64,000 bases of DNA from Firmicutes bacterium ASF500 (GTDB lineage Bacteria; Bacillota; Clostridia; Oscillospirales; Oscillospiraceae). This document shows positions 14,048 through 33,363 of this stretch, one piece after another; positions within the stretch are counted from its first letter, which is position 1; each line of letters opens with the position of its first letter. The stretch covers positions 3,038,001 through 3,102,000 of the forward strand of contig CP097573.1 of NCBI GenBank assembly GCA_000492175.2. Reading direction: 5' to 3'. A program made the position numbers and the translations under genes. Under the pieces are notes generated by a model. It ran no database searches. It worked only from the letters and a program-made list of their open reading frames with translations, and was not told the DNA's origin.

Positions 14048-14473
14048 TCACTCCATCCCCGCGGTGGGGAAGCCGTAGCTGTTCAAAATCTCCAGCGCCT
14101 TCCGGGCGCAGTCACAGATCAGCTGGGGGCAGGTCCGGGGGATGTTGTCCCGGTCCCCCTGGATGATGTCGCCGCAGTCAGGACTGCCATAGCGCTCCTC
14201 GAACCAGGCCAGAAGCTCGGACACCATCACCGCCAGGTCCGGGTCGGCCTCCTCCTCCGGGGTACCCCGCCCGGCGAACAGACTGAGCATGCACACGCCC
14301 CCGGTGAGGGCCCCGCAGTTATGGCCGCAGCCACCCAGCCCCCCGGCCAGGCCGCTCATGGCCTTGACCAGATTGGGCTCCTCCAGCTCCAGGGCCTCCA
14401 TGCCCACCATCATCATGATCTGAGAGCAGTGGAACTTCTGCTCCAGAAGGGCGCTGATTTTATCCTCCAGCAT
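14048..14473 (-). CDS. DVU_1555-type C-GCAxxG-C-C family protein
   Basis: 141 residues with regularly spaced cysteines: HCSQ (residue 16), GGCGHNCGALTGGVC (about residues 48-62), PDCGD, and CPQLICDC near the end. This matches the C_GCAxxG_C_C redox family, members of which accompany molybdenum hydroxylase maturation clusters (DVU_1551-1557 type). The function is unknown; a metal or Fe-S carrier role is inferred from the cysteines. It is transcribed away from the oxidoreductase operon from a consensus promoter. Confidence 0.8.
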   Translation of the reverse strand: MLEDKISALLEQKFHCSQIMMMVGMEALELEEPNLVKAMSGLAGGLGGCGHNCGALTGGVCMLSLFAGRGTPEEEADPDLAVMVSELLAWFEERYGSPDCGDIIQGDRDNIPRTCPQLICDCARKALEILNSYGFPTAGME

Positions 14474-14491
14474 CGTACAAGCCTCCTTGTG

Positions 14492-14508
14492 TTTCCTCGT
14501 CGAGGAAA
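14492..14508. promoter_or_regulatory. Perfect palindrome, candidate operator
   Basis: TTTCCTCG-t-CGAGGAAA sits just downstream of the -10 box of the minus-strand promoter, about +3 to +19 of the predicted transcript and 18 nt before the gene start. The position suits a repressor site; the regulator is unknown. Confidence 0.45.
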
Positions 14509-14517
14509 ATTACCTGT

Positions 14518-14546
14518 ATTATATGGACGATTGTCCCTTCTGTCAA
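14518..14546 (-). promoter_or_regulatory. Consensus sigma-A promoter of the C-GCAxxG-C-C gene
   Basis: On the minus strand TTGACA (14546-14541), a 17-bp spacer and TATAAT (14523-14518) match the consensus exactly. Confidence 0.85.
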
Positions 14547-14622
14547 TGAAATTTTTTCTCATTCTACAAAAATGCCCCTGTTTTTGTGCAGAGTGCATGA
14601 AACTGTTTTCCCATTTTTGTTA

Positions 14623-14651
14623 TTGACGGGAGGAAAATTTTCATCTATAAT
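14623..14651 (+). promoter_or_regulatory. Promoter of the molybdenum hydroxylase operon
   Basis: TTGACG (14623-14628), 17-bp spacer, TATAAT (14646-14651). The ATG follows 60 nt later behind AAGGAGG. It is the only strong promoter seen before the next 15 kb of plus-strand genes. Confidence 0.8.
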
Positions 14652-14711
14652 AGGGGCCGAAGCAAAGCATGAGAGCTTGAACTATACTATATCATTAAGG
14701 AGGACAGAGCT

Positions 14712-17645
14712 ATGAATCTGAGAAAAATGTGGCTGAACATCAACGGTGTGGACCGTGTCTTCACCTGCGATCCTGAGGCCGACTCCCTGGCTGATGTTCT
14801 GCGCCGCATCGGCCTGACCGGTACCAAGGTGGGCTGCGGCACCGGCGTGTGCGGCTCCTGCTCCGTCGTTCTGAACGGCGAACTGGTCCGCTCCTGCACC
14901 CGGAAGATCCGCGCCATCAAGGAGTACAGCACCGTGATCACCATCGAGGGCATCGGCACGCCCCAGCACCCCCACCCCATCCAGATCGCCTGGATGAACT
15001 GCGGCGCGGTGCAGTGCGGCTTCTGCACCCCCGGTTTCATTGTCTCTACTTACGCCCTGCTGATGAACAACCCCAACCCCACCCGTCAGGAGGCCCGGGA
15101 GTGGTTCACCAAGCACCGCAACGTGTGCCGCTGCACCGGCTATAAGCAGATCATCGACGCCGTGATGGCCGCCGCCAAGGTCATGCGGGGCGAGGCCACC
15201 ATCGAGGATATCACCGTCAAGAATCCCGACAACGGCGAGTACTATGGCAAGCCCCTGGTCCGGCCCACCGCCATGGCCAAGGTCTGCGGCCTGTACGACT
15301 ACGGCGACGACCAGGAGCTGTCCTTCCCCGAGAACACCCTCTACGGCGCTGTCGTTCAGCCTCGGGTGACCCACCACGCCAAGATTCTGGCTATCCACAC
15401 CGAGGAGGCCGAGAAGATGCCCGGCGTGTACAAGGTGGTCACCGCTGAGGCCCTCAAGGCCGCCGGCGGCACCAACGTCCTGGCCGAGGGTCAGTTCCAT
15501 GAGCGCTCCACCGTGCTGGAGTCCTCCCGCCGGGTGCTGTGCGACGAGAAGATTTTCCGCTATGGCGACGTAATCGCCGTGGTCTGCGCCGACACCCGGG
15601 CCCACGCCAAGGCCGCCGCCGCCAAGGTCACCATGGACATCGAGCAGCTGCCCGAGTCCCTGAGCTACCTGGAGGCCGTCATGCCCGACGCCGCCCGGGT
15701 CCATGAGGACACCCCCAACATCTACTGCGAGCAGCCCCTGCTCAAGGGCGTGGGCCTGGAGGACGCCGAGAAGGTCCGGGAGATGATCGACGGCGCGCCC
15801 AACGTGGTAGAGGGCTCCTTCTACTCCACCCGTCAGCCCCATATGTCCATCGAGGGCGACATCATTCAGAGCTACTTTGACGAGGACGGCTTCCTCACCT
15901 TCCAGTGCAAGAGCCAGGGCGTCTACTCCTCCATCAGCCGCATCGGCGGCAGCCTGGGCGTTCCCACCAGCAAGATCCGCGTGCTGATGAACCCCACCGG
16001 CGCCAGCTTCGGCTGGTCCACCAACGCCAGCGACCTGGCCCTGTGCGGCGCCTGCACCGTGGCTACCGGCATGCCCGTCTCCCTGTCCATGACCTATGAG
16101 GAGCACCAGCACTTCTCCGGCAAGCGGGCTCCCGCCTACTCCAACGGCCGCCTGGCCTGCGACAACGACGGCAAGATCATCGCCGCCGAGTACGACTTCG
16201 GCGTGGACCACGGCGCTTACTCCTGGGGCGGCGACGACCTGATCACCAAGGTGGTCCGCCACGTCTACTTCCCCTATAACGTGCCCCACGTGGCCGCTCT
16301 GGGCCGCATCGCCAACACCAACCACAACTTCGCCACCGCCTACCGCTCCTACGGCTCCCCCCAGGCCTACACCCACTCCGAGTCCATGATGGACCTGATG
16401 GCCGAGAAGCTGGGTCTGGACCCCTTCGAGATCCGCTGGCGCAACATCGCCCGGGAGGGCGACACCACCACCGCCAGCTATGACTACCCCCAGTATCCCA
16501 TGGAGGAGATCATGAAGCGAGCCAAGCCCGTCTATGAGGAGATGGTGGCCCACGCCAAGGAGACCTCCACCCCCGACAAGCTGCGGGCCGTGGGCGTGGC
16601 CTGGGGCGGCTTCAACGTCACCGAGGGCGCTACCGACGAGGCCTCCGCCGACCTGGAGCTCAACCCGGACGGCACCATCACCAAGTACGACACCTATCAG
16701 GAGCTGGGCCAGGGCGGCGACATCGGCTCCCTGATGCTCACCCTGGAGGCCCTGAAGCCCCTGGGCATCAAGCCCGAGCAGGTCCGGCTGGTCCAGAACG
16801 ACACCAAGCTGTGCCCCGACTCCGGCATGTCCGGCGCCAGCCGCACCCACTTCATGAGCGGCAACGCCACCATCGACGCGGCCAACAAGCTGCTGGCCGC
16901 CATGCGCAAGGCCGACGGCACCTACCGCACCTATGACGAGATGGTGGCCGAGAACATCCCCACCCGCTACCGCGGCACCTACTCCTGCACCACCGCCGCT
17001 CCCCGGGGCACCAAGCTGTGCCGCATGGACCCCAACACCGGCGTGGGCAACCCCAACCCCTCTTACACCTACTGCTTCAATATCGCCGAGGTAGAGGTGG
17101 ACGCCAAGACCGGCAAGGCCAGCTGCATCCGCTTCGCCTGCGTCACCGACGTGGGCAAGCCGGGCAACATCGCGGCTGTTCTGGGTCAGGCCTACGGCGG
17201 CATCTCCCACTCCATCGGCTTCGCCCTGTCCGAGAACTACGACGATGTGAAGATTCACGGCAATATCGCCCGCTCCGGCGTGCCCTACTGCACCGACACC
17301 CCCGACGACATCGACGTGATCCTCTACGAGCGGCCCGACGAGATCGGCCCCTTCGGCTCCTCCGGCTCCTCCGAGGCCTTCCAGGCCTCCGGCCACGTGG
17401 CCGTCCTCAACGGCATCAAGCGGGCCTGCGGCGTGCGGGTCTATGAGCTGCCCGCCTCCCCCGACAAGATCAAGGCCGGCATGGACGCCATCGCCGCCGG
17501 GGAAGCGCCCTTCAAGCCCGAGAAGTACTTCCTGGGCGACGATATGTATGAGCGCCTGGCCGACATCAAGGAGCACCCCGTCACCTTCGGCGGCGACAGC
17601 TTCTACGCGCCTCTGGACGACAAGAACGCCGCCAAGCCCTTCTAA
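14712..17645 (+). CDS. MOP-type molybdopterin aldehyde oxidoreductase
   Basis: 977 residues, a single-chain molybdenum hydroxylase. The N-terminus holds two [2Fe-2S] domains: plant-type GCGTGVCGSC (about residues 42-51) and QCGFC plus CRCTGY (about 102-142). The molybdopterin domain follows from about residue 190, with GKRAP, DHGAYS, YRSYGSPQ and GASRTHFMSGN. The active-site glutamate is retained in GPFGSSGSSE near residue 890, aligning with GPFGASGVGE of Desulfovibrio gigas MOP as I recall it. There is no FAD domain, so electrons should leave through a separate carrier. Codons are strongly biased to GAG, AAG and ATC, suggesting high expression. The substrate (aldehyde, purine or heterocycle) cannot be told from sequence. 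Confidence 0.9.
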   Translation: MNLRKMWLNINGVDRVFTCDPEADSLADVLRRIGLTGTKVGCGTGVCGSCSVVLNGELVRSCTRKIRAIKEYSTVITIEGIGTPQHPHPIQIAWMNCGAVQCGFCTPGFIVSTYALLMNNPNPTRQEAREWFTKHRNVCRCTGYKQIIDAVMAAAKVMRGEATIEDITVKNPDNGEYYGKPLVRPTAMAKVCGLYDYGDDQELSFPENTLYGAVVQPRVTHHAKILAIHTEEAEKMPGVYKVVTAEALKAAGGTNVLAEGQFHERSTVLESSRRVLCDEKIFRYGDVIAVVCADTRAHAKAAAAKVTMDIEQLPESLSYLEAVMPDAARVHEDTPNIYCEQPLLKGVGLEDAEKVREMIDGAPNVVEGSFYSTRQPHMSIEGDIIQSYFDEDGFLTFQCKSQGVYSSISRIGGSLGVPTSKIRVLMNPTGASFGWSTNASDLALCGACTVATGMPVSLSMTYEEHQHFSGKRAPAYSNGRLACDNDGKIIAAEYDFGVDHGAYSWGGDDLITKVVRHVYFPYNVPHVAALGRIANTNHNFATAYRSYGSPQAYTHSESMMDLMAEKLGLDPFEIRWRNIAREGDTTTASYDYPQYPMEEIMKRAKPVYEEMVAHAKETSTPDKLRAVGVAWGGFNVTEGATDEASADLELNPDGTITKYDTYQELGQGGDIGSLMLTLEALKPLGIKPEQVRLVQNDTKLCPDSGMSGASRTHFMSGNATIDAANKLLAAMRKADGTYRTYDEMVAENIPTRYRGTYSCTTAAPRGTKLCRMDPNTGVGNPNPSYTYCFNIAEVEVDAKTGKASCIRFACVTDVGKPGNIAAVLGQAYGGISHSIGFALSENYDDVKIHGNIARSGVPYCTDTPDDIDVILYERPDEIGPFGSSGSSEAFQASGHVAVLNGIKRACGVRVYELPASPDKIKAGMDAIAAGEAPFKPEKYFLGDDMYERLADIKEHPVTFGGDSFYAPLDDKNAAKPF

Positions 17646-17692
17646 TTCCGCCCTCTCTTCTTCCATCCCCCTCTTTCCTGCACATTGATTCC

Positions 17693-17745: not shown

Positions 17746-20010
17746 ATGAACGATTTCCGCACCCAGCTGGCGGAGCGGTGTATGCAGAACGACCCGCCGC
17801 CCTGCGCCTCGGTCTGCCCCTTCGGCCTGGACGTCCGGGCCTTCGCCGGACACATGAAGCGGGGGGCCTTCAGCGCCGCCTTCCGGCTGTATCGGGACGC
17901 GGTGGCCTTCCCCGGGATTGTCAGCCGGCTGTGCGATCAGCCCTGCGGCCAGGCCTGCGTCTTCTCCGGGCAAAACGGGGCCATCGCCCTGCGGGACCTG
18001 GAGGCGGCGGCCATCGCCCACGCCCCCAACATCAACCCCAACCGGTACAGCCTGCCCAAGCGGCCCGGGAAAATCGTCATCGTGGGCGCGGGGCCCAGCG
18101 GCTTGGCCTGCGCTCTGCGGCTGGCCTCGAAAAAGTACGAGGTCGTTATCCTGGAGCGAGAAGAACGTATGGGCGGCTCCCTGTGGGGCCTCCTCCCGGA
18201 GGAGGTCCTGCTGCCCGAGCTGGAGCGGCAGTTTATGTATGAGACGGTGGACCTCCGCCTCTCCACCCCTGTGACGGACCTGTCCCGGCTGGAGGCGGAC
18301 GCCGTATATGTTGCCACTGGCCGGGAGGGAAATTCCTTCGGCCTGGAGCTGTCCGGCCAGGGGGCCTGCGCCTCCCGGACGGAGGGCTTCTTCCTGGGAG
18401 GGGAGCTGACGGGCGGGACCGTCATGGAGGCCATCGCCTGCGGACTGCTGGCGGCCAAGGCCATCGAGCGCTATCTGAAAATCGGGACCATGAACGAGCC
18501 CCTCCGGGACTGGTCCACCCGCTTCCACCCCGACCCCGGCCTTCTGTCCTACACGCCCCCCGCCCCCCGGACGGGAGAGGGCGTCCTCACCAAGGAGGAG
18601 GCCGAGGCCGAGGCGGGCCGGTGCCAGCAATGCCAGTGCGACGCCTGCGTCAAGTACTGCGACCTGATGCGGAGCTACCGCAAGTACCCCAAGCGGGTGG
18701 AGGAGGAGGTAGCCACCACCATCGAGCCGGTAAGCCTGTCCCGAAAGGCCCGGCTGGCTACCCGGTTCATCGCCACATGCAACCACTGCGGCCTGTGCAA
18801 GCAGGTCTGCCCCGTCTCCCTGGACACCGGGGCCTACCTCCTGGACAGTCACCGGCGGATGGTGGAGGAGAAGGCCATGCCCTGGGCCTATCACGAGTTC
18901 TGGCTGCGGGATATGGAGTTCTCCACGGGGGACGCCTCCCTGGTGGTCAACGCCTCTAAAAGCGGCAAGCCCAAGTATCTGCTTTTCCCCGGCTGCCGTC
19001 TGGGCGGCTCCGACCCCCAGCTGGTGCTGGACATCTTCCAGGTCCTTTTGGAGCGGGAGCCGGAGTCAGCCCTGTTCCTGTCCTGCTGCGGCGCTCCGGC
19101 GGAGTGGGCCGGGGAGGAGGCGCTTCACCAGCGGACCGTCCAGTACTTCGCCCAGGTCTGGGAGAGCCTGGGCAGGCCCCAGGTGGTCTTTGCCTGCCTC
19201 AACTGCCGCCAGGAGCTGGCCCGGCACCTGCCCCAGGCGGAGGGAATCTCCCTGTATGAGCTGCTGGACCGCTGGGAACTGCCCGTTTCCCAGTCCGGCG
19301 GAGGACAGACCGCCGCCGTCTTTGACCCCTGCCCCAGCCGGGACTTCCCGGAGGCCCGGGAGGCGGCGCGCTCCCTGGCCCGAAAGGCTGGCTTCCGGCT
19401 GGAGGCCCTCCCCCTGGAGGGGGAGCACGCCCAGTGCTGCGGCTGGGGGGGACAGGTGGAGATCGCCAACCCCAAATACGCCGAGGGAGTGACCCAGAAC
19501 CGGATCGAGGCCAGCCCCCTGCCCTATCTGGTCTACTGCGCCAACTGCCGGGATGTGTTCCGCCGCCGGGATAAGGCCGCGGCCCATCTCCTGCGGGCCA
19601 TTCTCCCCGGAGGGGAAGCGGGCGGGCTGTGGGACGGCTCCGTCCCCACCGCCACCCAGAGCCGGGACAACCGGCGCTGGCTGAAGCACCAGCTTTTACT
19701 GCAATACAAGCCGGAGGAGGCGCGTTTGATGGACACTCCCCAGACAGGGGCCCCTTTGCTCATCGCCCCGGAGCTGTTGGAAAAAATGAATCTCAGCTAT
19801 CTGCTCCGGGAGGACGTGGAGCTGGTGGTGGAGACCTGCGAGCGGACCGGAACGTACCTGGTCAACGAGGAGACGGGCACCCGCCTGGGCCACGCCATGG
19901 CCGGACGGCTGACCGTCTGGGCGGAGTACCGCAATCTGGAAAACTGCCGGGAGCTGGTGAACGTATACGCCCACCGGATGCGGATTATGGAGGGAATGGG
20001 AAATGTCTAA
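17746..20010 (+). CDS. Pyridine nucleotide-disulfide oxidoreductase / Fe-S dicluster protein
   Basis: 754 residues. N-terminal cysteine-rich segment (CASVCPFGLD at 21-30, then CDQPCGQAC), as in GltD-type proteins. An FAD-binding GxGxxG motif, IVGAGPSGLACALRL, lies near residue 109. A ferredoxin-like pair follows (CQQCQCDACVKYC near 290; CNHCGLCKQVCP near 345). The C-terminal half resembles heterodisulfide-reductase CCG domains (LSCCGAP, QCCGWGG, YCANCRD). Such proteins accompany DVU_1557-type redox proteins. It probably accepts or delivers electrons for the flavin-less hydroxylase. Confidence 0.82.
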   Translation: MNDFRTQLAERCMQNDPPPCASVCPFGLDVRAFAGHMKRGAFSAAFRLYRDAVAFPGIVSRLCDQPCGQACVFSGQNGAIALRDLEAAAIAHAPNINPNRYSLPKRPGKIVIVGAGPSGLACALRLASKKYEVVILEREERMGGSLWGLLPEEVLLPELERQFMYETVDLRLSTPVTDLSRLEADAVYVATGREGNSFGLELSGQGACASRTEGFFLGGELTGGTVMEAIACGLLAAKAIERYLKIGTMNEPLRDWSTRFHPDPGLLSYTPPAPRTGEGVLTKEEAEAEAGRCQQCQCDACVKYCDLMRSYRKYPKRVEEEVATTIEPVSLSRKARLATRFIATCNHCGLCKQVCPVSLDTGAYLLDSHRRMVEEKAMPWAYHEFWLRDMEFSTGDASLVVNASKSGKPKYLLFPGCRLGGSDPQLVLDIFQVLLEREPESALFLSCCGAPAEWAGEEALHQRTVQYFAQVWESLGRPQVVFACLNCRQELARHLPQAEGISLYELLDRWELPVSQSGGGQTAAVFDPCPSRDFPEAREAARSLARKAGFRLEALPLEGEHAQCCGWGGQVEIANPKYAEGVTQNRIEASPLPYLVYCANCRDVFRRRDKAAAHLLRAILPGGEAGGLWDGSVPTATQSRDNRRWLKHQLLLQYKPEEARLMDTPQTGAPLLIAPELLEKMNLSYLLREDVELVVETCERTGTYLVNEETGTRLGHAMAGRLTVWAEYRNLENCRELVNVYAHRMRIMEGMGNV

Positions 20011-20194
20011 CCGGCCGCTGATTTGCAGCACCTGCCGCTGTCCCCTGGAGGAGAAGCGGGTGGATTTTGAATATCTGGGACACACCTTTTTTGCCGACGC
20101 CCCCCGCTGTCCGGTCTGCGGCCAGGTCTATCTCTCTGAGGAGCTGGTGAAGGGCCGGGTGGCCGAGGTGGAAATGCAGCTGGAAGATAAATAG
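20003..20194 (+). CDS. DVU_1557-type small redox protein
   Basis: 63 residues with two CxxC-like knuckles, CSTCRCP and CPVCGQ, spaced like a zinc ribbon or rubredoxin-like site. The ATG overlaps the end of the previous gene by eight bases. Probably a small metal-binding or electron-transfer partner of the oxidoreductase; the family function is unproven. Confidence 0.78.
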   Translation: MSNRPLICSTCRCPLEEKRVDFEYLGHTFFADAPRCPVCGQVYLSEELVKGRVAEVEMQLEDK

Positions 20195-20207: not shown

Positions 20208-20816
20208 ATGAACGATCACAGAGAAGTACCGGAGCTCCTGGGCTCCACACTCCGGGACCTGCGGCTCCAGCACGGCCTGACTCTGCGGGACATGGCGGAC
20301 AAGACCGGCCTGTCCACCGGCTTTCTCAGCAAGGTGGAGCGGGGGTTTAGTCAGCCCTCTATCAACAATTTACACAAGATCTGCTATGTCCTTCACATCG
20401 CCATTGACGATCTGGCCGCCCCCCGGCGGGACAGCCAGCGCCCCGAGCACCCCCACCCCGCCGCCCCCGGCTCCCCGCTGATTAAGAAGGGACAGCGCTC
20501 CCTCATCTACAGCGTGAACCACATGGTAAAGCTGGAGTCCATTTTCTCCGCCAGCTCCAGCTATAAGCTGGACGTGCTGACCCTGACGGGGGGCAAGGTG
20601 GAGTACGCCTCCAAGCACCGCTATGAGGAGGTGGGCATCGTCTCTCAGGGGCGGATGGAGATTCAGTTTGAAACCGGCCAGACCTACCTGATGGACGAGG
20701 GCGATGTACTCCAGATTCCTGCGGACACCGAGCACACGGTGCGCAACCTGTCCGAGAGCCCCTGCGTCAGCTTCTGGTTCAAGCTGATGGACCAGGGGGA
20801 CGACGGCGAGGTATGA
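20208..20816 (+). CDS. XRE family regulator with cupin domain
   Basis: 202 residues. N-terminal helix-turn-helix (LGSTLRDLRLQHGLTLRDMADKTGLSTGFLSKVERG, residues 8-45) and a C-terminal cupin (about 120-195: HRYEEVGIVSQGRMEIQFE, then GDVLQIPADTEHTVRNLSE). The cupin probably senses a small ligand. It lies inside the operon and its stop overlaps the ligase start (ATGA). It is a candidate local regulator for the cluster. Confidence 0.9.
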   Translation: MNDHREVPELLGSTLRDLRLQHGLTLRDMADKTGLSTGFLSKVERGFSQPSINNLHKICYVLHIAIDDLAAPRRDSQRPEHPHPAAPGSPLIKKGQRSLIYSVNHMVKLESIFSASSSYKLDVLTLTGGKVEYASKHRYEEVGIVSQGRMEIQFETGQTYLMDEGDVLQIPADTEHTVRNLSESPCVSFWFKLMDQGDDGEV

Positions 20817-25039: not shown

Positions 25040-25981
25040 ATGGCAGAGCTGGCCGGACTGATTTTAGCCGCCGGGGTCTCCTCCCGGATGGGGACCTTCA
25101 AGCCCATGCTGACGGTGGACGGACAGACTATGGTCCGCCGGGTGGCGGACATGATGCGCCGGGCGGGGGCCGACCCCATCGCCGTTGTCACCGGCTATCA
25201 CAGTCAGGCGCTGGAGCGCCACCTAACCGGCGTTCTCTTCATTCGGAACGAGCGCTACTACGGGACCCAGATGCTGGACTCCCTCCTGCTGGGGCTGGAG
25301 GGCCTGCCGGAGGATGTCCGGCGGGTGCTGGTTTCCCCCGCCGATATCCCCCTGGTGGAGCCGGGGACGGTGGACGCCCTGCTGGCGGCGGAGGGGGACT
25401 TCGTCCGCCCCCTGTTTCAGGGGACCCCCGGCCATCCGGTGGTGCTGTCCCGCTCCCTCCTCCCGGCCCTGCGGTCTTACGGCGGCGAGGGCGGCTTGAA
25501 GGGGGCCGTGGGGGCGCTGGGCATCCCGGTTACCGACGTAGCCGTGGACGACCGGGGCACCGCCCTGGACAGCGACACCCGGGACGAGTACGCCGCCCTG
25601 TTAAAATACCGCCGCCAGCAGACCAACCGGCCCCAGCCCCTCCAGCTGGACCTGCACCTGGGGCTCCAGGCGGAGACAGGCTTCTTCACCCCCCGGTGCG
25701 CCCAGTTTCTGGAGCTGATTCAGACCACCGGCTCCATGCTCAACGCCTGCCACTGTATGCATATGTCCTACTCCAAGGGCTGGACCACCATCAACGAGAT
25801 GGAGCGCCAGCTGGGCTACCCCGTCCTCATCCGCAGTCAGGGGGGGAGCAACGGCGGCGGCTCCAGCCTGACTGAGCAGGGCGCGGCCCTCCTCTCCGCC
25901 TACCGCAGGCTCCAGGAGGACATCCAGGCCTACAGTCAAGCGGCCTTTGAAAAATATTTTCCCCGCGATCATCAATCATAA
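25040..25981 (+). CDS. DVU_1551-type NTP transferase with C-terminal ModE/LysR-like HTH
   Basis: 313 residues. Residues 1-190 are a MobA/MocA-like nucleotidyltransferase (GLILAAGVSSRMGTFKPML; VSPADIPLVEP). Residues about 205-300 resemble the ModE N-terminal winged helix (LELIQTTGSMLNACHCMHMSYSKGWTTINEMERQLGYPVL, then GGSNGGGSSLTEQG). It could attach CMP or another nucleotide to molybdopterin and also bind DNA. A ModE-like palindrome lies before modA, 3.8 kb downstream. The start follows AAGGAGG. Confidence 0.85.
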   Translation: MAELAGLILAAGVSSRMGTFKPMLTVDGQTMVRRVADMMRRAGADPIAVVTGYHSQALERHLTGVLFIRNERYYGTQMLDSLLLGLEGLPEDVRRVLVSPADIPLVEPGTVDALLAAEGDFVRPLFQGTPGHPVVLSRSLLPALRSYGGEGGLKGAVGALGIPVTDVAVDDRGTALDSDTRDEYAALLKYRRQQTNRPQPLQLDLHLGLQAETGFFTPRCAQFLELIQTTGSMLNACHCMHMSYSKGWTTINEMERQLGYPVLIRSQGGSNGGGSSLTEQGAALLSAYRRLQEDIQAYSQAAFEKYFPRDHQS

Positions 25982-25998: not shown

Positions 25999-26829
25999 AT
26001 GCAAACGCTATTTCAACAGATGAATCAGCGCCTGGCCCAGGGTGAGAGCCTGGTCCTGGTGAGCGTAGAGGCCAGCAGCGGCTCCACCCCCCGGGGGGAG
26101 GGGGCCATGATGCTGGTGTCCGCCCAGGGACGGATCGCCGGGACCATCGGCGGCGGCGCGGTGGAGTACCGCAGTGAGCAGCTGGCCCGGGAGGCGCTGG
26201 CGGCGGGCCGGTCCCGGGTGGAGCGCTTCCAACTCCGGCCCAACGAGGTCCAGGACCTGGGCATGATCTGCGGCGGCGACGTGGAGGTCAGCTTCCGCTA
26301 TCTGGCCGGCGGCGACGAGGCCGCCATCGCCTGGGCCAGGGAGGAGGAAGCACGGCTGACCCCCTCGGGAAGGGTCTATATCTTCGGCGGCGGCCACGTG
26401 GCCCAGGCCCTGGTCCCCGCCCTGGCGGCGGTGGACTTCCGGTGCGTAGTGCTGGAGGACCGGGAGGACTTCTGCCGGCCCGAGCTCTTCCCCGGCGTGG
26501 AGGAGACCCGGCTCATCCAGAACGGCGACCCCGCCGCCTACGCGGGCATCACGGCGGAGGACTATGTCGCCGTCATGACCCGGGGCCACAAGGATGACCT
26601 TACCGTCCAGGCCCAGGCCCTGAAAACTCCGGCCAAATACATCGGGGTCATTGGGAGCCGGAAAAAGACGGCGGCGGTGTTCGCCAAGCTCAGGGACATG
26701 GGCTATACCGACGCCGACCTCCAGCGCGTCACCACCCCCATCGGCCTGAGCATCAAGGCCGAGACCCCCGCGGAGATCGCGGTGAGCATCGCGGCCCAGC
26801 TCATTCAGCTCCGGGCCGAGACCAAGTAA
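25999..26829 (+). CDS. xdhC: XdhC family molybdenum hydroxylase maturation factor
   Basis: 276 residues. The N-terminal XdhC/CoxI segment carries SSGSTPRGEGAMM and GTIGGGAVEY (about 20-60). A Rossmann-type C-terminal half has VYIFGGGHVAQALVPALAAVDF and the end motif IGVIGSRKK. XdhC proteins bind and sulfurate the molybdenum cofactor before insertion into xanthine-dehydrogenase-type enzymes, so its client is probably the hydroxylase at 14.7 kb. Confidence 0.9.
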   Translation: MQTLFQQMNQRLAQGESLVLVSVEASSGSTPRGEGAMMLVSAQGRIAGTIGGGAVEYRSEQLAREALAAGRSRVERFQLRPNEVQDLGMICGGDVEVSFRYLAGGDEAAIAWAREEEARLTPSGRVYIFGGGHVAQALVPALAAVDFRCVVLEDREDFCRPELFPGVEETRLIQNGDPAAYAGITAEDYVAVMTRGHKDDLTVQAQALKTPAKYIGVIGSRKKTAAVFAKLRDMGYTDADLQRVTTPIGLSIKAETPAEIAVSIAAQLIQLRAETK

Positions 26830-26849: not shown

Positions 26850-27794
26850 ATGACCGACACATTTGGCCGGACGGTGGACTATCTGCGCCTGTCCGTCACC
26901 GACCTGTGCAACTACCGGTGTCAATACTGCATGCCGGAGGAGGGGGTGTGCAAGCGGCGGCACGAGGACATTCTCTCCGCGGAGGAGTGCGTGGAGGTGG
27001 TCCGGGCGGCGGCGAAGTGCGGCGTCACCAAGGTCCGCCTCACCGGCGGGGAGCCCCTGGTCCGCCGGGGAATTTTAGACATCTGCCGGGGTATCGCCGC
27101 CCTGCCAGAGATCAAGGAGCTGTGCCTGACCACCAACGGGGCCCTTCTGCCCCAGCTGGCCAAGCCCCTCCGGGAGGCGGGGGTGGACCGGCTGAACATC
27201 AGCCTGGACACCCTGCGGCCCGACCGGTTCGCCGCCATGACCCGGACCGGCTCCCTGGACCAGGCGCTGGCCGGCCTGGCCGCCGCCGGGGAGGCCGGAT
27301 TTACCGATTTAAAACTGAACGCCGTCCTCATCGGCGGCTTCAACGACGACGAGGTGGGCGATTTCCTGGCCCTGACCAGAGACAAGCCCTGGGAGCTGCG
27401 CTTCATCGAGCTGATGCCCATGGGCCCCTGCGCCGGGTGGGAGAAGCGCTGCTTCCTGTCCAGCGCCGACGTGCTGTCCCGCTTCCCGGAGCTGGAGCCC
27501 ATTGAGTCCCAGGGGGTGGCCCTGCGGTACCGCCTGCCCGGGGCCAGGGGGACGGTGGGCTTTATCTCCCCCCTGAGCCACACTTTCTGCGCCCAGTGCC
27601 GCCGCCTCCGGGTGACGGCGGACGGCAAGCTGAAAAGCTGTCTCCACAGCCGGGAGGAAATTTCCCTCAAGGGCCTCCGGGGCCCCGGGCTGGAGGAGGC
27701 CATCCGTCAGGGGATTCTGCAAAAGCCCCAGGAGCACCACCTGACGGAGCGCCCCAGCGACACCCCCCGGAACATGAATCAGATTGGAGGCTAG
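26850..27794 (+). CDS. moaA: GTP 3',8-cyclase MoaA
   Basis: 314 residues. First step of molybdopterin synthesis. The radical SAM ligands Cys20, Cys24 and Cys27 lie in CNYRCQYCMPEEG; the second cluster ligands are in FCAQCRRLRVTADGKLKSC. The C-terminus ends in Gly-Gly, as MoaA needs. 20 nt after xdhC with a GGAGG site. Confidence 0.96.
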   Translation: MTDTFGRTVDYLRLSVTDLCNYRCQYCMPEEGVCKRRHEDILSAEECVEVVRAAAKCGVTKVRLTGGEPLVRRGILDICRGIAALPEIKELCLTTNGALLPQLAKPLREAGVDRLNISLDTLRPDRFAAMTRTGSLDQALAGLAAAGEAGFTDLKLNAVLIGGFNDDEVGDFLALTRDKPWELRFIELMPMGPCAGWEKRCFLSSADVLSRFPELEPIESQGVALRYRLPGARGTVGFISPLSHTFCAQCRRLRVTADGKLKSCLHSREEISLKGLRGPGLEEAIRQGILQKPQEHHLTERPSDTPRNMNQIGG

Positions 27795-27797: not shown

Positions 27798-28277
27798 ATG
27801 GAGGAGCTGACCCACTTCAACGACCAGGGCCGGGCCCGGATGGTGGACGTGACCGGTAAAGCCGTCACCCACCGCACCGCCGTGGCCCAGGGCGAGATCC
27901 ATATGAACGGGGAGACCTTTTCCCGCATCCAGGCCGGGACCATCAAAAAAGGGGACGTGCTGGCGGTGGCCCAGGTGGCGGGCATCCAGGCGGCCAAGCA
28001 CACCTGGGAGCTCATCCCCATGTGCCACCCCCTGCCCCTCACGGGCGTCGACATCTCCTTTCGCCTTTTTGAAAACCCCTTCCGGGTGGAGATCACCGCC
28101 CAGGTCACCTGTTCCGGGGTCACCGGGGTGGAGATGGAGGCCCTCACCGCCGTCTCCGCCGCCGCATTGACCATCTATGACATGTGCAAGGCGGTCCAGA
28201 AGGACATGCGCATGGAACACATCCGCCTGCTGTCCAAATCCGGCGGCAAGAGCGGGGACCATCAGATTAAGGAGTGA
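27798..28277 (+). CDS. moaC: Cyclic pyranopterin monophosphate synthase MoaC
   Basis: 159 residues. Works directly after MoaA. The conserved [12 protein letters not shown], and [41 protein letters not shown] near the C-terminus, match the family throughout. It begins three bases after the moaA stop. Confidence 0.96.
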
Positions 28278-28282
28278 ACACC

Positions 28283-28717
28283 ATGGCAAGCGTCATTTCC
28301 GTCAACATCAGTGAGAAAAAGGGGGAGCAGAAGCACCCCGTCTCTGAAATCAGCCTAAAGCTCCGCCACGGCATTGTGGGGGACGCCCACGCCGGGGACT
28401 GGCACCGGCAGATCAGCCTGCTGGCCGAGGAGAGCGTGGACACCATGCGCTCCGCCTGCCCCATCCCCCTGGACAGCGGGGTCTTTGCCGAGAACATCAA
28501 CACCCGGGGGCTGGACCTGAAAAATCTCCCTGTGGGGACCCATCTGCGCATCGGAGAGACCGAGGTGGAGGTCACCCAGATCGGCAAGGAGTGCCACAAC
28601 GACTGCGCCATCAAAAGGGCGGTGGGCAAGTGCGTCATGCCCACCGAGGGCATCTTCGCCGTGGTGGTGAAGGAGGGCACGGTCCGGGCCGGAGATGAAA
28701 TCGAGGTGTTATCATGA
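28283..28717 (+). CDS. MOSC domain protein
   Basis: 144 residues from ATG 28283, chosen because AAGGAG lies eight bases upstream; a GTG at 28274 overlaps that site. RHGIVGDAHAGDWHRQISLL and ENINTRG fit the molybdenum-cofactor-sulfurase C-terminal (MOSC) fold; KECHNDCAIKRAVGKCVMPTEGIFAVV carries the expected cysteines. Short bacterial MOSC proteins sit in molybdopterin operons and probably handle sulfur or cofactor transfer. Confidence 0.9.
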   Translation: MASVISVNISEKKGEQKHPVSEISLKLRHGIVGDAHAGDWHRQISLLAEESVDTMRSACPIPLDSGVFAENINTRGLDLKNLPVGTHLRIGETEVEVTQIGKECHNDCAIKRAVGKCVMPTEGIFAVVVKEGTVRAGDEIEVLS

Positions 28718-29733
28718 AGCAGATCCGCACCGAGGAGGCCGTGGGACACGTCCTCTGCCACGACATGACCCAGATCATCAAGGACCAGTTCAAGGACGCC
28801 CGGTTCCGCAAGGGCCACGTGGTCACGGAGGAGGATATCCCTGTCCTGCTGTCCATGGGCAAGGAGCACCTGTATGTCTGGGAGATGACCCCCGATATGC
28901 TCCATGAGGACGAGGGGGCCGCCCGCCTCGCCGCCCTGTGCCGGAATGAGCACATGACCCTCTCCGGCCCCAAGGAGGGGAAGATTGAGGTCTTTGCCGG
29001 CTGTGACGGCCTGTTCCTGGTGGACAGCCAGCGGCTCACCGCGGTCAATTCGGTGGGGGACGTGATGATCGCCACCCGCCACGGGAACACGACGGTCCGC
29101 AAGGGGGACAAGCTGGCGGGCACCCGGGTGATCCCCCTGATTATCCCGGAGGAGGTCCTGCAAAGGACGGAGGCGGCGGCGGGGCCCGAGCCCCTGCTGT
29201 CCCTCCACCCCTGGAAGCGGAAAACCGCCGCCATCATCGTCACCGGGAACGAGGTGAAAAAGGGCCTCATTCAGGACACCTTCTCCCCCGTGGTGGCGGA
29301 GAAGCTGGCCTCTTACGGCGTGGAGACCCGCTCCGTGGTCCAGTCGGGGGACGGGGTAGAGGCGGTGGCCCAGGCGGTCAATGAGGCCAGGGCCAGCGGA
29401 GTGGACATCATCGTCTGCACCGGCGGCATGAGCGTGGACCCGGACGACAGCACCCCCGGCGGCATCAAGGCCACCGGCGCGGAGATTATCTCCTACGGCG
29501 CGCCCGTCCTCCCTGGGGCTATGTTCCTCCTGGGCTATTTCGATGACGGCGCCCCCGTCATGGGCCTGCCCGGCTGTGTCATGTACGCCGGGGCCACCGT
29601 GTTCGACCTGGTGCTCCCCAAAATCGTGGCCGACGTGCCCGTTACCCGGGCCGACCTGGCCGCTATGGGCGAGGGCGGGCTGTGCCTGGGCTGTAAGCCC
29701 TGCCGGTATCCCGTCTGCCCCTTTGGGAAGTGA
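28714..29733 (+). CDS. Molybdopterin-binding (MoeA/MogA-like) protein
   Basis: 339 residues, start overlapping the MOSC stop (ATGA). The MoCF-biosynthesis fold is in the C-terminal half: AAIIVTGNEVKKGLIQDTFSPVV near residue 170 and IIVCTGGMSVDPDDSTPGGI near 235. The N-terminal part is MoeA-like but lacks a full-length MoeA layout (about 400 residues). The C-terminus has CLGCKPCRYPVCPFG, a four-cysteine tail that could bind a metal. Probably handles molybdate insertion into molybdopterin. Confidence 0.82.
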   Translation: MKQIRTEEAVGHVLCHDMTQIIKDQFKDARFRKGHVVTEEDIPVLLSMGKEHLYVWEMTPDMLHEDEGAARLAALCRNEHMTLSGPKEGKIEVFAGCDGLFLVDSQRLTAVNSVGDVMIATRHGNTTVRKGDKLAGTRVIPLIIPEEVLQRTEAAAGPEPLLSLHPWKRKTAAIIVTGNEVKKGLIQDTFSPVVAEKLASYGVETRSVVQSGDGVEAVAQAVNEARASGVDIIVCTGGMSVDPDDSTPGGIKATGAEIISYGAPVLPGAMFLLGYFDDGAPVMGLPGCVMYAGATVFDLVLPKIVADVPVTRADLAAMGEGGLCLGCKPCRYPVCPFGK

Positions 29734-29740: not shown

Positions 29741-29768
29741 AAAAATAGCTGGTCCGCCGGCTATTTTT
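29741..29768 (+). terminator. Hairpin after the molybdopterin operon
   Basis: A perfect 9-bp stem (AAAAATAGC / GCTATTTTT) with a 10-nt loop, T-rich on the 3' arm. It separates the maturation genes from modABC. Confidence 0.65.
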
Positions 29769-29799: not shown

Positions 29800-29824
29800 A
29801 CATAAAGAGAAAGGAAATACCCCT

Positions 29825-30616
29825 ATGAAAAAGCTGTTGTCCTTTACCCTGGCTCTGGCCGCGCTCCTGACCCTGACCGCCTGCGCCCCAAAGCCCGAGG
29901 AGACGGAGCTCCACATATTCGCCGCCGCCTCCATGACGGAGGTCCTGGACGAATTCATTGAGGCCTACAGTGCGGTGGACCCCCATGTGACTATCATCCC
30001 CACCTACGACTCCTCCGGCACCCTCCTCACCCAGATTCAGGAGGGGGCGGACTGCGACCTGTTCATCTCCGCCTCCCCCAAACAGATGGACGCTCTGGAC
30101 GAGGCCGGCTCCCTGCTGGAGGGGACCCGGGTGGACCTTCTGGAGAACAAGGTGACCTTGGCCGTCCCCCAGGGCAACCCCAAGGGGATTGAGAGCTTTG
30201 ACCAGCTGGCCCGGCTGCTGGAGTCCAGGGACATACTGCTGGCTGTGGGCAACAGCGACGTGCCGGTGGGGCAGTACACCCAGAAAATTTTCGCTTACTA
30301 CGGCCTGGACGAAGCGTCTTTGGCCGGAGCCCTCACCTACGGCTCCAACGTGAAGGAGGTCACCACCCAGGTGTCCGAGGGGACGGTGGACTGCGGCATC
30401 ATCTACGCCACAGACGCCTTCTCCGCCGGGCTGACGGTGGTGGACAGCGCCACGGAGGAGATGTGCGGCCAGGTAATCTACCCCGCCGCCGTTCTGGCCG
30501 GCAGCAAGCATCCGGAGGAGGCCAGGGCTTTTCTGGACTTGCTCCGGGGCAATTCCACCCGGGATGACGCCGTCAGGAAAATGTTTGAGGCGGTTGGGTT
30601 TTCCCCCATACGATGA
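29825..30616 (+). CDS. modA: Molybdate ABC transporter substrate-binding lipoprotein
   Basis: 263 residues. Lipoprotein signal with lipobox LTAC (Cys near residue 20). AAASMTEVLDEF, YDSSGTLLTQIQEGADCDLFISA and VGNSDVPVGQYT are typical ModA ligand-loop segments. Captures molybdate (or tungstate) at the cell surface for ModBC. It starts after GAAAGGAAA. Confidence 0.93.
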   Translation: MKKLLSFTLALAALLTLTACAPKPEETELHIFAAASMTEVLDEFIEAYSAVDPHVTIIPTYDSSGTLLTQIQEGADCDLFISASPKQMDALDEAGSLLEGTRVDLLENKVTLAVPQGNPKGIESFDQLARLLESRDILLAVGNSDVPVGQYTQKIFAYYGLDEASLAGALTYGSNVKEVTTQVSEGTVDCGIIYATDAFSAGLTVVDSATEEMCGQVIYPAAVLAGSKHPEEARAFLDLLRGNSTRDDAVRKMFEAVGFSPIR

Positions 30617-30643
30617 TAAAATGCTCTGGAAAGAAGGACGGTT

Positions 30644-31306
30644 ATGGACTGGTATCCCCTGTTCAACTCCCTGCGCATCGCGGCCATCTCCACAGCGGCG
30701 GTGTTCTTTTTGGGAATCGCCGCCGCCCAGTGGATTGCCCGCCTGCCCCGGGGCGTGAAGGGGGCGCTGGACGTAATTCTCACCCTGCCCCTGGTCCTGC
30801 CGCCCACGGTGGTGGGCTGGCTGCTGTTGATGCTGCTGGGGCCCAAGCGGCCTCTGGGGGCCTGGGTCCAGGAGGCGTTGGGGGTCCGGCTGGTAATGAC
30901 TTGGCAGTCGGCCATCTTCGCCACGGTGGTGGTGGCCTTCCCCCTGATGTACCGCACCGCCCGGGGGGCCTTTGAGAGTTTTGACCAAAACCTGGCCGAC
31001 GCGGGCCGCACCCTGGGCCGGTCCAATTCCTGGGTCTTTTGGCGGGTCCAGATGCCCTGCTGCAAACAGGGCGTCCTGGCCGGGACGGTGCTGGCCTTTG
31101 CCCGGGCGCTGGGGGAGTACGGAGCCACCTCCATGCTGGCGGGGTACACCCCGGGCCGCACCGCCACCATCTCCACCACCGTCTATCAGCTCTGGCGCAC
31201 CGGGGACGACCCAGGGGCGATGCGCTGGGTGCTGGTGAATCTGGCCATTTCGGCGGTTTTCCTGCTGGCCATCAGCCTGCTGGAACACCGGCGGGAGAGG
31301 AGGTGA
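30644..31306 (+). CDS. modB: Molybdate ABC transporter permease
   Basis: 220 residues, about five membrane helices. The cytoplasmic EAA loop is in ADAGRTLGRSNSWVFWRVQMP, followed by ARALGEYGATSMLAG. LPLVLPPTVVGWLLL is characteristic of ModB. 27 nt after modA. Confidence 0.93.
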   Translation: MDWYPLFNSLRIAAISTAAVFFLGIAAAQWIARLPRGVKGALDVILTLPLVLPPTVVGWLLLMLLGPKRPLGAWVQEALGVRLVMTWQSAIFATVVVAFPLMYRTARGAFESFDQNLADAGRTLGRSNSWVFWRVQMPCCKQGVLAGTVLAFARALGEYGATSMLAGYTPGRTATISTTVYQLWRTGDDPGAMRWVLVNLAISAVFLLAISLLEHRRERR

Positions 31307-31310
31307 GGGC

Positions 31311-32357
31311 GTGGCGCTCTCGGTGGACATTCGAAAAAAGCTGGGAAAATTCCAGCTCCAGGTCCAATTTGAGGCCGGGGACGAGCGGCTGGCCCTCCTG
31401 GGGGCCTCGGGCTGCGGGAAGTCGCTGACGCTGCGCTGTGTGGCCGGGATTGTCCGGCCCGACGCGGGAAAAATCGTCCTGGACGGCGTCACCCTCTTTG
31501 ACAGCGCGGCGGGCGTCGACCTCCCGCCCCAGCGCCGCCGGGTGGGCTATCTCTTCCAGCAGTACGCCCTGTTCCCCAACATGACAGTCCGGCAGAACAT
31601 CGCCGCCGCCGTCCGGGACCGGGCCGCGCAGGAGGAGACTGTCTCCACCCTCCTCCGCCGCTTCCGCCTGGAGGAGCTGGCGGGGCTGAAACCGGGACAG
31701 CTGTCCGGAGGCCAGCAACAGCGGACCGCCCTGGCCCGCATTCTGGCCTCCCAGCCCCAGGTCCTCCTTTTGGACGAGCCCTTTTCCGCCCTGGACAGCT
31801 ATCTCAAATCCCAGCTGGAGCTGGAGCTGATGGAGACGCTGGACCAGTTTCCTGGTACAGTCCTCTGGGTCTCCCACGACCGGGGGGAGGTGTTCCGCAG
31901 CTGTCAGCGGGTGTGCGTCATAGACGGAGGACAATCCCAGCCGGTCCAGGACCTGTCCCAGCTCTTCCACGCTCCGGGGACCGAGGCCGCCGCCCGGCTG
32001 TCCGGCTGCAAGAACTTCGCCGACGCCCTCCCTCGGGGGGATGAGGTCTACCTCCCCGCATGGGACCTGACCCTGCGCTGCGGCCGTCCCGTCCCGCCGG
32101 ACACCGTCCGGGCGGGGGTGCGGGCCCGCTTCATCCGGCCCGCCGGAGGCCCGGGGGAGAACACCTTCCCCTGCGCCGTGGCGCGGGTGGTGGAGGACGT
32201 ATTCAGCACCATCGTGATTCTCCGCCCGGAGGGGTCCGCCCCGGACGCCCCGCCGCTGAGGATGGAGCTGGACAAAATGGCCTGGCGGGCCCTCCCGGAC
32301 CGGGAACGGCTCACCGTCCAGATTGCCCCCAGGGATATTTTATTGTTTCGCCATTGA
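31311..32357 (+). CDS. modC: Molybdate ABC transporter ATP-binding protein
   Basis: 348 residues from GTG 31311 with GGAGG upstream. Walker A GASGCGKS near residue 30, signature LSGGQQQRTALAR near 133, Walker B QVLLLDEPFSALD near 152. The C-terminal third (about 230-345) is the oxyanion-binding Mop/TOBE-like regulatory domain. Energises molybdate uptake. Confidence 0.93.
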   Translation: MALSVDIRKKLGKFQLQVQFEAGDERLALLGASGCGKSLTLRCVAGIVRPDAGKIVLDGVTLFDSAAGVDLPPQRRRVGYLFQQYALFPNMTVRQNIAAAVRDRAAQEETVSTLLRRFRLEELAGLKPGQLSGGQQQRTALARILASQPQVLLLDEPFSALDSYLKSQLELELMETLDQFPGTVLWVSHDRGEVFRSCQRVCVIDGGQSQPVQDLSQLFHAPGTEAAARLSGCKNFADALPRGDEVYLPAWDLTLRCGRPVPPDTVRAGVRARFIRPAGGPGENTFPCAVARVVEDVFSTIVILRPEGSAPDAPPLRMELDKMAWRALPDRERLTVQIAPRDILLFRH

Positions 32358-32372
32358 TACAGACAGCTCCGC

Positions 32373-32421
32373 GTAGGGGCGCATATTATGCGCCCGCGGG
32401 CGGCTGATAGCCGCCCCTACA
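32373..32421. repeat. Palindromic repeat pair between modC and mogA
   Basis: Two stem units side by side: GGGCGCAT-att-ATGCGCCC and GGGCGGCT-gat-AGCCGCCC, bordered by GTAGG and CCTAC. The stem bases differ from other copies in the window but remain paired. Confidence 0.8.
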
Positions 32422-32453
32422 GGGCCGCGCGGTGCCTGGAAGGAGGAATTTTT

Positions 32454-32945
32454 ATGTTTCAAGCCGCCGTGTTAACGGTCAGCGACCGCAGTTTTCGGGG
32501 GGAGCGCCCCGACGAGGGCGGGCCGCTGGTGGCCGGTCTCCTGGAGGGGGCGGGCTTTTCCGTGGTAAAGACCGCCGTCGTCCCCGACGAGCAGGTTCAG
32601 ATCGAGGACGCCCTGCGGGAGATTTCCGACAGCGGGGCGGTCCAGCTTCTGGTCACCACCGGCGGGACCGGCTTCTCCCCCCGGGACGTGACCCCGGAGG
32701 CCACCCTGGCCGTCTGCCAGCGCATGACCCCCGGCATCCCGGAGGCTATGCGGTACGCCTCCATGCGGGTGACCAGCCGGGCGATGCTCTCCCGGGCCCA
32801 GGCGGGCATCCGGGGCGGGACGCTTATCGTCAATCTGCCCGGCTCCCCCAAGGCCGCAAGGGAAAATTTGGAGGCTGTCCTGCCCGCCCTGTCTCACGGC
32901 CTGGAGATGCTCTCTGGCCGTCCCGCCGACTGCGCCAAACTTTAA
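32454..32945 (+). CDS. mogA: Molybdenum cofactor biosynthesis protein MogA/MoaB
   Basis: 163 residues; ATG 32454 follows AGGAGG and matches the family start (FQAAVLTVSDRS). TTGGTGFSPRDVTPEAT, the molybdopterin-adenylylation loop, and LPGSPKAARENLEAVLPAL are clear. It adenylylates molybdopterin before metal insertion. The frame remains open to 32388 inside the repeat but without a start site. Confidence 0.93.
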   Translation: MFQAAVLTVSDRSFRGERPDEGGPLVAGLLEGAGFSVVKTAVVPDEQVQIEDALREISDSGAVQLLVTTGGTGFSPRDVTPEATLAVCQRMTPGIPEAMRYASMRVTSRAMLSRAQAGIRGGTLIVNLPGSPKAARENLEAVLPALSHGLEMLSGRPADCAKL

Positions 32946-32964
32946 AAACGAGGAGGAATGTCCT

Positions 32965-33363
32965 ATGATGATCGCCGCCGCCGCCAATGAAAACAGCATG
33001 TCCGCCCTGATCCCCGACACCTTTGAGAAGGCCGCGGGCATCATGCTCTTTGACCTGGAGACCGATCAGCCGCCCCAATTTGTCACTGAGAACCTGGCCC
33101 AGCACATCATCGACGCCCAGTGCGAGGCCCTGCTGTGCGGCTTTATCTACGACGCTCAGTTTTTCGAGGCCATCGCTCAGGCCGGAGTCACCCGCTACCT
33201 GGCGGGGGAGATGACGGTGGAGGAGGCCGTCGCCGCCATGGACGCCTATCAGCTGAGCATGATCCCCGACTATGTGGGCGGCCCCGGCTGCTCCGGCCAC
33301 GGCCACGAGCACCACCACGACGACTGCGACGGAGACTGCGACGCCTGCCAGCATTCAGAATGA
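32965..33363 (+). CDS. NifX-like protein with His/Asp/Cys-rich tail
   Basis: 132 residues. Residues 1-105 resemble the dinitrogenase iron-molybdenum cofactor (NifX/NafY) fold: MIAAAANENSMSALIPDTFEKAAGIMLFD and AGVTRYLAGEMTVEEAVAAM. The last 28 residues form a metal-binding tail (CSGHGHEHHHDDCDGDCDAC). There are no nitrogenase genes nearby, so a metal or molybdenum cofactor carrier for the hydroxylase is a reasonable inference. It ends the molybdenum block. Confidence 0.7.
   Translation: MMIAAAANENSMSALIPDTFEKAAGIMLFDLETDQPPQFVTENLAQHIIDAQCEALLCGFIYDAQFFEAIAQAGVTRYLAGEMTVEEAVAAMDAYQLSMIPDYVGGPGCSGHGHEHHHDDCDGDCDACQHSE

Follow-up and report, generated by a model that had tools for sequence, protein, structure and literature searches.

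A roughly ten-gene cassette inherited with MOP-type aldehyde oxidoreductases and its possible role in enzyme maturation and electron transfer

The window analysed here is a stretch of 64,000 nucleotides (C1:3038001-3102000) from the genome of Firmicutes bacterium ASF500, which comprises 3.67 Mb in a single contig. It harbours a block of molybdenum-related genes around a MOP-type aldehyde oxidoreductase (AOR). In total 19 genes follow each other in a tight run on the plus strand (14712-33363 of the window), and a further gene on the minus strand (14048..14473), divergent from this operon, encodes a C-GCAxxG-C-C redox-type protein of the DVU_1555 family (NF045669, 143.7 bits at a cut-off of 103; PF09719). 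The description of an earlier note on this DNA, which had placed the whole block from 14048 onwards on one strand, thus holds from 14712.

NCBIfam and Pfam profiles with their curated cut-offs were run on the window proteins. The AOR gene (14712..17645, start maybe at 14730; NF045668, 1115 bits at a cut-off of 1100; PF00111, PF01799, PF01315, PF02738, PF20256) is followed by an oxidoreductase gene (OxR, 17746..20010; NF045663, 687.9 at 530), whose product combines a DPD/Nfn-type FeS-FAD module, a 4Fe-4S dicluster and two CCG domains, and by the gene of a small CxxC protein (20003..20194), which had been noticed before and can now be identified as DVU_1557 (NF045645, 76.7 at 60). A helix-turn-helix (HTH)/cupin regulator (20208..20816; PF01381, PF07883), encoded between the CxxC protein and the ligase, had been overlooked. 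The PaaK-like AMP-forming ligase of the DVU_1553 family (LIG, 20813..22054; NF045666, 425.1 at 300) has PaaK 4r1l as its best PDB match and scores 125.3 bits with the PaaK profile TIGR02155, under the cut-off of 646.3. Then come TrsS, a Tes-like radical SAM protein (22056..23339; NF045646, 530.5 at 490), whose nearest named relatives among the matches listed belong to Lawsonibacter, and TrsM, a methyltransferase of the DVU_1556 family (23336..23974; NF045667, 168.7 at 155) with a GTG start at 23336 inside the end of TrsS. They are followed by a CobC-like histidine phosphatase fused to an HD domain (23974..25026; PF00300, PF01966), a MocA-like nucleotidyltransferase (NTP transferase) with a ModE-type HTH domain (25040..25981; TIGR00637 ModE) and an XdhC-type cofactor chaperone (25999..26829; TIGR02964, 173.5 at 161.6). 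The ModE-type DNA-binding domain on the MocA-like transferase (25040-25981) might directly link cofactor synthesis to gene control.

The second half of the run encodes MoaA (26850..27794; TIGR02666, 347.2 bits), MoaC (27798..28277; TIGR00581, 216.6 bits), a MOSC-domain protein (28274..28717; PF03473), a MoeA/MogA-like molybdopterin-binding protein with a Cys-rich tail (28714..29733; PF00994), ModA (29825..30616; TIGR01256, 109.7 bits), ModB (30644..31306; TIGR02141, 209.6 bits), ModC (31311..32357; best match TIGR02142 with 189.8 bits at a cut-off of 285), a MogA/MoaB-type protein (32388..32945, true start perhaps 32451; TIGR00177, 120.6 bits) and a NifX-like (Nitro_FeMo-Co) protein (32965..33363). 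The functions named in the earlier note were recovered by the NCBIfam and Pfam profiles, except that the NifX-like match stays below the Pfam cut-off (PF02579, 22.4 bits against 26.3). Overlaps of 1-8 nt had been reported for most junctions, but only six out of 18 overlap (by 8, 4, 4, 1, 4 and 4 nt); ten show gaps of 1-30 nt, and two gaps are larger (AOR/OxR 100 nt, MoeA-like/ModA 91 nt). Scans of the window with Rfam (gathering scores) and for tRNAs gave no match.

Seven of these proteins (C-GCAxxG-C-C, AOR, OxR, CxxC, LIG, TrsS and TrsM) lie above the cut-offs of the NCBIfam families that make up the DVU_1551-DVU_1559 set (NF045645, NF045646, NF045663-NF045669), and the DVU_155x and Trs family names given in the earlier note do exist. 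The NTP transferase and XdhC of the window remain below the cut-offs of this set (290.8 bits in NF045664 at 350 for XdhC). The NTP-HD protein of the set is split here into the phosphatase-HD and the NTP-ModE-HTH proteins: the NTP transferase covers positions 2-196 and the HD half positions 197-354 of NF045665, and on their two chains they reach 167.6 and 112.7 bits (cut-off 315). With the MocA profile TIGR03310 the NTP transferase scores 101.2 bits, under the cut-off of 186.45. The window further adds the HTH-cupin gene and the general molybdenum cofactor (Moco) and molybdate genes. The names of these families come from NCBI. An earlier published description of this neighbourhood is likely to exist; DVU_1559 is named aldehyde oxidoreductase in the available text of PMC10920352, and gene names beginning with DVU15 are absent from the main text of the random barcode transposon sequencing (RB-TnSeq) paper PMC10102598, as far as that text was available.

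Scanning genomes with a TrsS alignment yielded at least 573 confirmed loci, of which the best 80, ranked by similarity, were fetched with their flanks; because of this choice they lean toward the kin of the window. Forty of these 80 loci have flanks of 7 kb or more in either direction, and these 40 were scored by custom profiles. OxR is present in 31 of them, AOR in 30, CxxC in 29, TrsM in 28, the ligase in 27, C-GCAxxG in 26, the NTP transferase in 22, XdhC and HD in 21 each, the phosphatase in 18 and the MoeA-like protein in seven. MoaC, ModA, ModB, ModC and NifX (four each), MOSC (three), MoaA and MogA (two each) are rare. Since the genes from MoaA to NifX, the MoeA-like one aside, occur in only two to four loci each, the conserved core ends at XdhC. 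This core is an old cassette, and most of what follows it, up to NifX, consists of general Moco and molybdate genes placed here locally.

Two genome samples were surveyed, 291 genomes of the class of the window (presumably Clostridia, judging from named relatives) and 149 genomes of the Desulfovibrio family (presumably Desulfovibrionaceae, on the same grounds). TrsS and the MOP-type AOR occur above their cut-offs in the same 11 of the 291 class genomes, which represent seven family-level groups. The ligase and OxR are above their cut-offs in these 11 and in one more (G282), and TrsM is above its own in ten of the 11, the eleventh (G444) reaching 111 bits. AOR matches only below the cut-off are present in 28 further genomes, none of which belongs to the 14 with a TrsS match at 1e-80; one of the 28, G282, has a true AOR that is interrupted by a contig end. 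Three genomes (G185, G313, G407) show a TrsS-like match below the cut-off and have no AOR. In the Desulfovibrio family, where the overlap was counted by hand, 95 genomes have AOR, 90 have TrsS, 89 have both and 53 neither. Among the six genomes counted with AOR and without TrsS, G133 and G145 do have TrsS, in pieces, in G060, G157 and G169 the cassette is truncated by the end of a contig close to the AOR, and G085 has only a 47%-identical AOR relative and no TrsS above 77 bits. From the 80 TrsS loci we chose by eye 33 which lack a full AOR on the locus, omitting L017 (distant relative only) and L016, L027, L069, L082 and L084 (AOR pieces). An AOR above the cut-off is held by 25 of the respective genomes; G006 lies just below it (1080 bits), G021, G022, G025, G028 and G029 contain pieces only (248-531 bits), G005 has a weak match of 249 bits, and G020 has no AOR. 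Because the sampled genomes are related, these counts do not represent independent events. A set of about ten genes is inherited with one family of MOP-type AORs nearly without exception, which bears out the co-occurrence of Trs genes and MOP-type hydroxylases that the earlier note had expected of a genome survey. The cassette probably helps to build or run the metal cofactor of the AOR.

Several of the cassette proteins are also found as natural fusions, which were counted with custom profiles in two lists of 120 and 64 proteins. TrsM is fused to LIG in 88 of the 120 and also at the loci L009 and L060; TrsM-NTP fusions account for 13 of the 64, and one of the 64 is an NTP-phosphatase fusion. 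As both query proteins were fusions themselves, these fractions are existence counts and not frequencies. NTP-HD and phosphatase-HD fusions exist too, and L170 encodes an NTP-HD-phosphatase protein. LIG, TrsM, the NTP transferase, HD and the phosphatase are thus physically linked, and through fusion to a domain resembling MCD synthase, MCD being molybdopterin cytosine dinucleotide, several of the Trs genes are connected with the nucleotide step in cofactor synthesis.

The AOR of the window consists of two [2Fe-2S] domains and a Mo domain, no FAD domain being among its Pfam matches, and its best PDB matches are 1dgj and 1sij. It keeps the eight [2Fe-2S] cysteines, R533 and E869. In an alignment of 109 AORs the FeS cysteines are conserved in 108-109 sequences, and R533, G654 and E869 in all of them. 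The numbers, names and roles of these sites and of the tunnel positions discussed below follow, in part, the literature on the Desulfovibrio gigas enzyme. That well-studied enzyme (MOP; PDB 1vlb, 1sij), an archetype in crystallography, shares the FeS cysteines, R533 and E869 with the window AOR at 41% identity, belongs to the same NCBIfam family (NF045668, 1672 bits at 1100) and is surrounded by the same cassette, so the hydroxylase of the block belongs to a kind that has been studied. The AOR in the genome G048 is 100% identical to 1sij over 505 residues, and the gene order there is MoeA-like, AOR, OxR, CxxC, TrsM, C-GCAxxG, TrsS, ligase, XdhC and phosphatase; the gene directly 5' of this AOR is a relative of the MoeA/MogA-like gene of the window. 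An NTP-HD protein (330 bits) is encoded elsewhere on the same contig, and as the next NTP-domain match reaches 30 bits, it is the only strong MocA-like match of G048 and the most likely source of the cytosine dinucleotide in the crystal.

This relation bears directly on the proposal of the earlier note that the Trs set makes a modified cofactor or installs an extra group, that is, that these genes produce a permanently modified Mo cofactor or an extra Mo ligand which is retained in the mature hydroxylase. Such a role would agree with the close co-occurrence, with TrsM fused to the MCD-synthase-like domain and with the NTP transferase fused to HD and phosphatase domains, and the association of the Trs genes with MOP-type hydroxylases and with the nucleotide step is the part of the proposal that stands. 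The D. gigas AOR, however, with the same cassette in its genome, carries a pyranopterin cytosine dinucleotide with three oxygen (oxo) ligands according to the available text of PMC10223205, where it is introduced as the enzyme on whose structure the xanthine oxidase family was long modelled. Its crystals, inactive at 1.75 A and activated at 1.57 A, show no equatorial sulfido ligand in either state; the refinement put no geometric restraints on the cofactor, the model 1VLB at 1.28 A served for comparison, and the portion of PMC3877041 available to us makes no mention of an added group. A plain MCD with oxo ligands in an enzyme with the same cassette, one half of what the earlier note had named as its refutation, speaks against a permanent modification. 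The sulfido is missing although the cassette includes XdhC, so a labile ligand could vanish during purification; an extra group would have to be labile, transient or located elsewhere. Taken together we regard a modification retained in the mature enzyme as unlikely.

As electron acceptor and flavin partner of the flavin-less AOR, OxR is the strongest candidate. Structure comparisons covered the families listed by Foldseek or VIA-align. In the predicted model, residues 14-246 (233 residues) align across positions 46-472 of 5jfc_L, the alpha subunit of NfnI, so that the model is left without an NAD(P)H domain, and residues 409-635 match LutA and chain B of Hdr. Compared with Nfn/Stn-type flavoproteins on one side and Hdr/LutA/EtfD on the other, OxR unites the two parts in one protein that has no NAD(P)H-binding domain. 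It contains one GxGxxG motif and two C-CC-CxxC sites, and all ten CCG-site cysteines are invariant in 41 of 41 sequences. The CxxC protein is fused to OxR, or to an end of it, at L153, L154 and L045. Among 23 related loci which hold AOR, OxR, TrsS, ligase and TrsM, the OxR distances follow those of AOR closer than the distances of the other genes do (r 0.94; partial correlation 0.84 when controlled for TrsS, ligase and TrsM), the partial correlation of AOR and TrsS being 0.05.

The two full CCG sites of OxR, its matches to chains of the Hdr complex and LutA, and its constant company with the cassette could also mean that the Trs genes make a small-molecule redox carrier, for example a thiol or quinone-like compound, between AOR and the HdrB-like OxR. 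The Tes-type clusters of TrsS could form C-S intermediates, and LIG and TrsM suit the synthesis of a small molecule. For a free carrier, however, the fusion of TrsM, HD and phosphatase to a MocA-like enzyme is not expected. Furthermore, the available text of PMC10223205 presents flavodoxin as putative AOR partner and states that the D. gigas AOR reduces flavodoxin in vitro, which it does without such a carrier. We consider a dedicated carrier quite improbable.

The substrate tunnels vary among the 109 AORs, those of cassette loci showing types such as FFLLH, TGDEL and others. F425, F494, L497 and L626 of the D. gigas enzyme are replaced by T, G, D and E in the window AOR, whose substrate therefore probably differs. 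Where AOR and TrsS share a locus, the AOR is of the hydrophobic D. gigas type at 18 loci, of the polar window type at 15 and of other types elsewhere, so one kind of Trs set serves enzymes with probably different substrates. Several genomes have AOR copies at a distance from their single Trs set: extra copies without a Trs gene within about 7-8 kb occur in the genome of the window itself (L161), in G154 (two), in G084 and, on a second contig, in G162, and in G271 AOR, OxR and CxxC form a second set that lacks the other cassette genes. A support module of this kind would be able to act in trans. The second AOR of the own genome (L161:8215-18224; C1, about 743-753 kb) lies beside genes which by eye resemble those of a nitroreductase, an OYE-like protein and a tricarboxylate transporter, and by this setting it is a candidate catabolic AOR.

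Because ligase and oxidoreductase share one operon and the closest solved relatives of the ligase are phenylacetate-CoA ligases, AOR, ligase, methyltransferase and TrsS might catalyse consecutive steps of one pathway, in which the AOR oxidises an aldehyde and the ligase activates the resulting acid. A catabolic pathway of this kind was rejected as disfavoured, because the tunnels of the cassette AORs differ and paralogous AORs, with other neighbours, use the same Trs set; moreover, XdhC and the NTP transferase belong to the same conserved unit. We regard it as very improbable.

TrsS scores 303.8 bits with the Tes profile NF045702, under the cut-off of 450. The ligands of the four metal sites of Tes, which include the labile Met439, were compared with TrsS. 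In 79 TrsS sequences C8/C11/C32/H35, C67/C71/C74/H77, C92/C96/C99 and M388/C404/C418 are kept in 77-79, with one Cys of the C-terminal cluster unplaced; as far as the alignment tells, TrsS keeps those Tes metal ligands that were examined. TrsS differs from Tes/GDGT-MAS (MJ0619, PDB 7tol/7tom), a chain of 526 residues, by its length of 427 residues and the extra invariant C308, and its genomic setting is that of a Mo hydroxylase. Because of this setting a coupling of lipid tails by TrsS is disfavoured. Considering TrsS as a lipid enzyme was also not supported by its bacterial relatives below the cut-off (G185, G313, G407), which adjoin ICMT-like and Lgt-like genes and, unlike TrsS, are devoid of M388, C404, C418 and C308. 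At the respective loci (L172, L173, L174) a Tes-like radical SAM gene is accompanied by an ICMT-type methyltransferase and an Lgt-like protein, Pfam-confirmed in L172 only and recognised by eye in the other two, and these Tes-like genes might form a candidate lipid-modifying system.

Some further features of TrsS were observed. CCCG-type repeats are expanded between the cluster motifs in P0037, P0032 and relatives, and 48 of the 79 sequences have at least one CC pair in this loop. A DUF5714 domain is fused to TrsS in P0097 (by Pfam match; the custom profiles found TrsS only) and adjoins TrsS at L020:3624-4373; MbdU, a metal-binding selenoprotein, is a distant relative of DUF5714 (102 bits at a cut-off of 600). 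The review PMC13188914, in the part available, lists TrsS as a selenoprotein with reference to Haft and Tolstoy 2025. No internal selenocysteine could be placed in TrsS at 25 flagged loci, where TGA lies, as seen by eye, at or beyond the natural end; one in-frame TGA each was counted in TrsS of G001 and G338. A CobW-type GTPase gene lies directly 5' of TrsS in many Oscillospiraceae loci (e.g. L018:617-1705, L034:8971-9987), and besides these two it was found in 13 of 59 scanned neighbours, hand-picked from 278 listed; this position suggests metal delivery.

The window resembles the XdhC/MocA maturation of the xanthine oxidase family insofar as an XdhC-type chaperone and a MocA-like transferase are likewise encoded beside a hydroxylase; OxR, CxxC, C-GCAxxG, TrsS, TrsM, ligase and HD/phosphatase proteins are unmentioned in the accessible part of PMC2997495. 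We consider it reasonably probable that the block is a module dedicated to the MOP-type AOR, serving its maturation and its electron transfer. In such a module the MocA-like NTP transferase would likely make MCD, XdhC would likely carry it and insert it into the AOR, and OxR would likely take up the AOR electrons through FAD, [4Fe-4S] and HdrB-type clusters. A weaker and tentative part of this proposal is that TrsS, TrsM, LIG and the phosphatase-HD protein carry out small-molecule chemistry which acts at the MCD stage: TrsS may abstract hydrogen in the manner of Tes, with the carbon caught on a cluster sulfur, and so give a small molecule a new C-C or C-S bond, TrsM may methylate this molecule, LIG may activate its carboxylate as acyl-AMP, and phosphatase and HD domains may trim it. 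The product would act at MCD synthesis or loading and leave the mature MCD without visible change.

Several observations weigh against this proposal. Fusions and co-occurrence, both drawn from sequence, are no proof of the chemistry or of a need of the AOR for the Trs genes. G282 (contig L171) encodes AOR, OxR, CxxC, TrsM, C-GCAxxG and LIG without TrsS (best match 57 bits); TrsS may therefore be dispensable, or it is missing from this assembly of 270 contigs. In G034, which shows no AOR match, two genes of TrsS type and LIG adjoin DUF5714-like and HGD-D proteins, so that the TrsS-LIG part can exist without AOR, and in many Oscillospiraceae loci TrsS is separated from LIG and TrsM. Nor do all genomes keep to one Trs set, as G292, G338 and G360 possess at least two TrsS and two AORs each. 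Finally, the partial correlations of AOR with ligase and with TrsM are -0.23 each, and OxR-TrsM (0.48) and TrsS-ligase (0.39) are tied as well, all on only 23 related loci.

In its widest form, the proposed module would mean that MOP-type Mo hydroxylases, including the D. gigas AOR, depend on an undescribed group or small molecule from Tes-type chemistry and TrsM/ligase, coupled to the MCD synthase, which three decades of structures missed because of its lability or short life or because a partner such as OxR or XdhC retains it; we think this doubtful. Should AOR require the Trs genes, bacteria would make something for the AOR family that is outside the known Moco pathway. The survey shows the neighbours of the D. 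gigas AOR to be conserved companion genes, which are not mentioned in the available text of PMC10223205, and it allows the need of AOR for TrsS, TrsM and the ligase, as well as OxR versus flavodoxin as acceptor, to be tested in Desulfovibrio.

Apart from these results some neighbouring genes may be listed. At L157:6638-12349 (G034, Desulfovibrio family) two TrsS-type genes, a ligase, a DUF5714-like gene (by eye) and a gene resembling 2-hydroxyglutaryl-CoA dehydratase D (HGD-D) adjoin each other. A sigma-54 activator is encoded 3' of the cassette in Clostridium carboxidivorans (L073:15393-17324), and three more were found among the 59 scanned neighbours. Outside the block the window itself contains an isopropylmalate-dehydrogenase/aconitase-type gene set (9554-12888), an [FeFe]-hydrogenase-like protein (40044-41510), a recombinase (42227-43576) and an IS1595 transposase (44009-44941).

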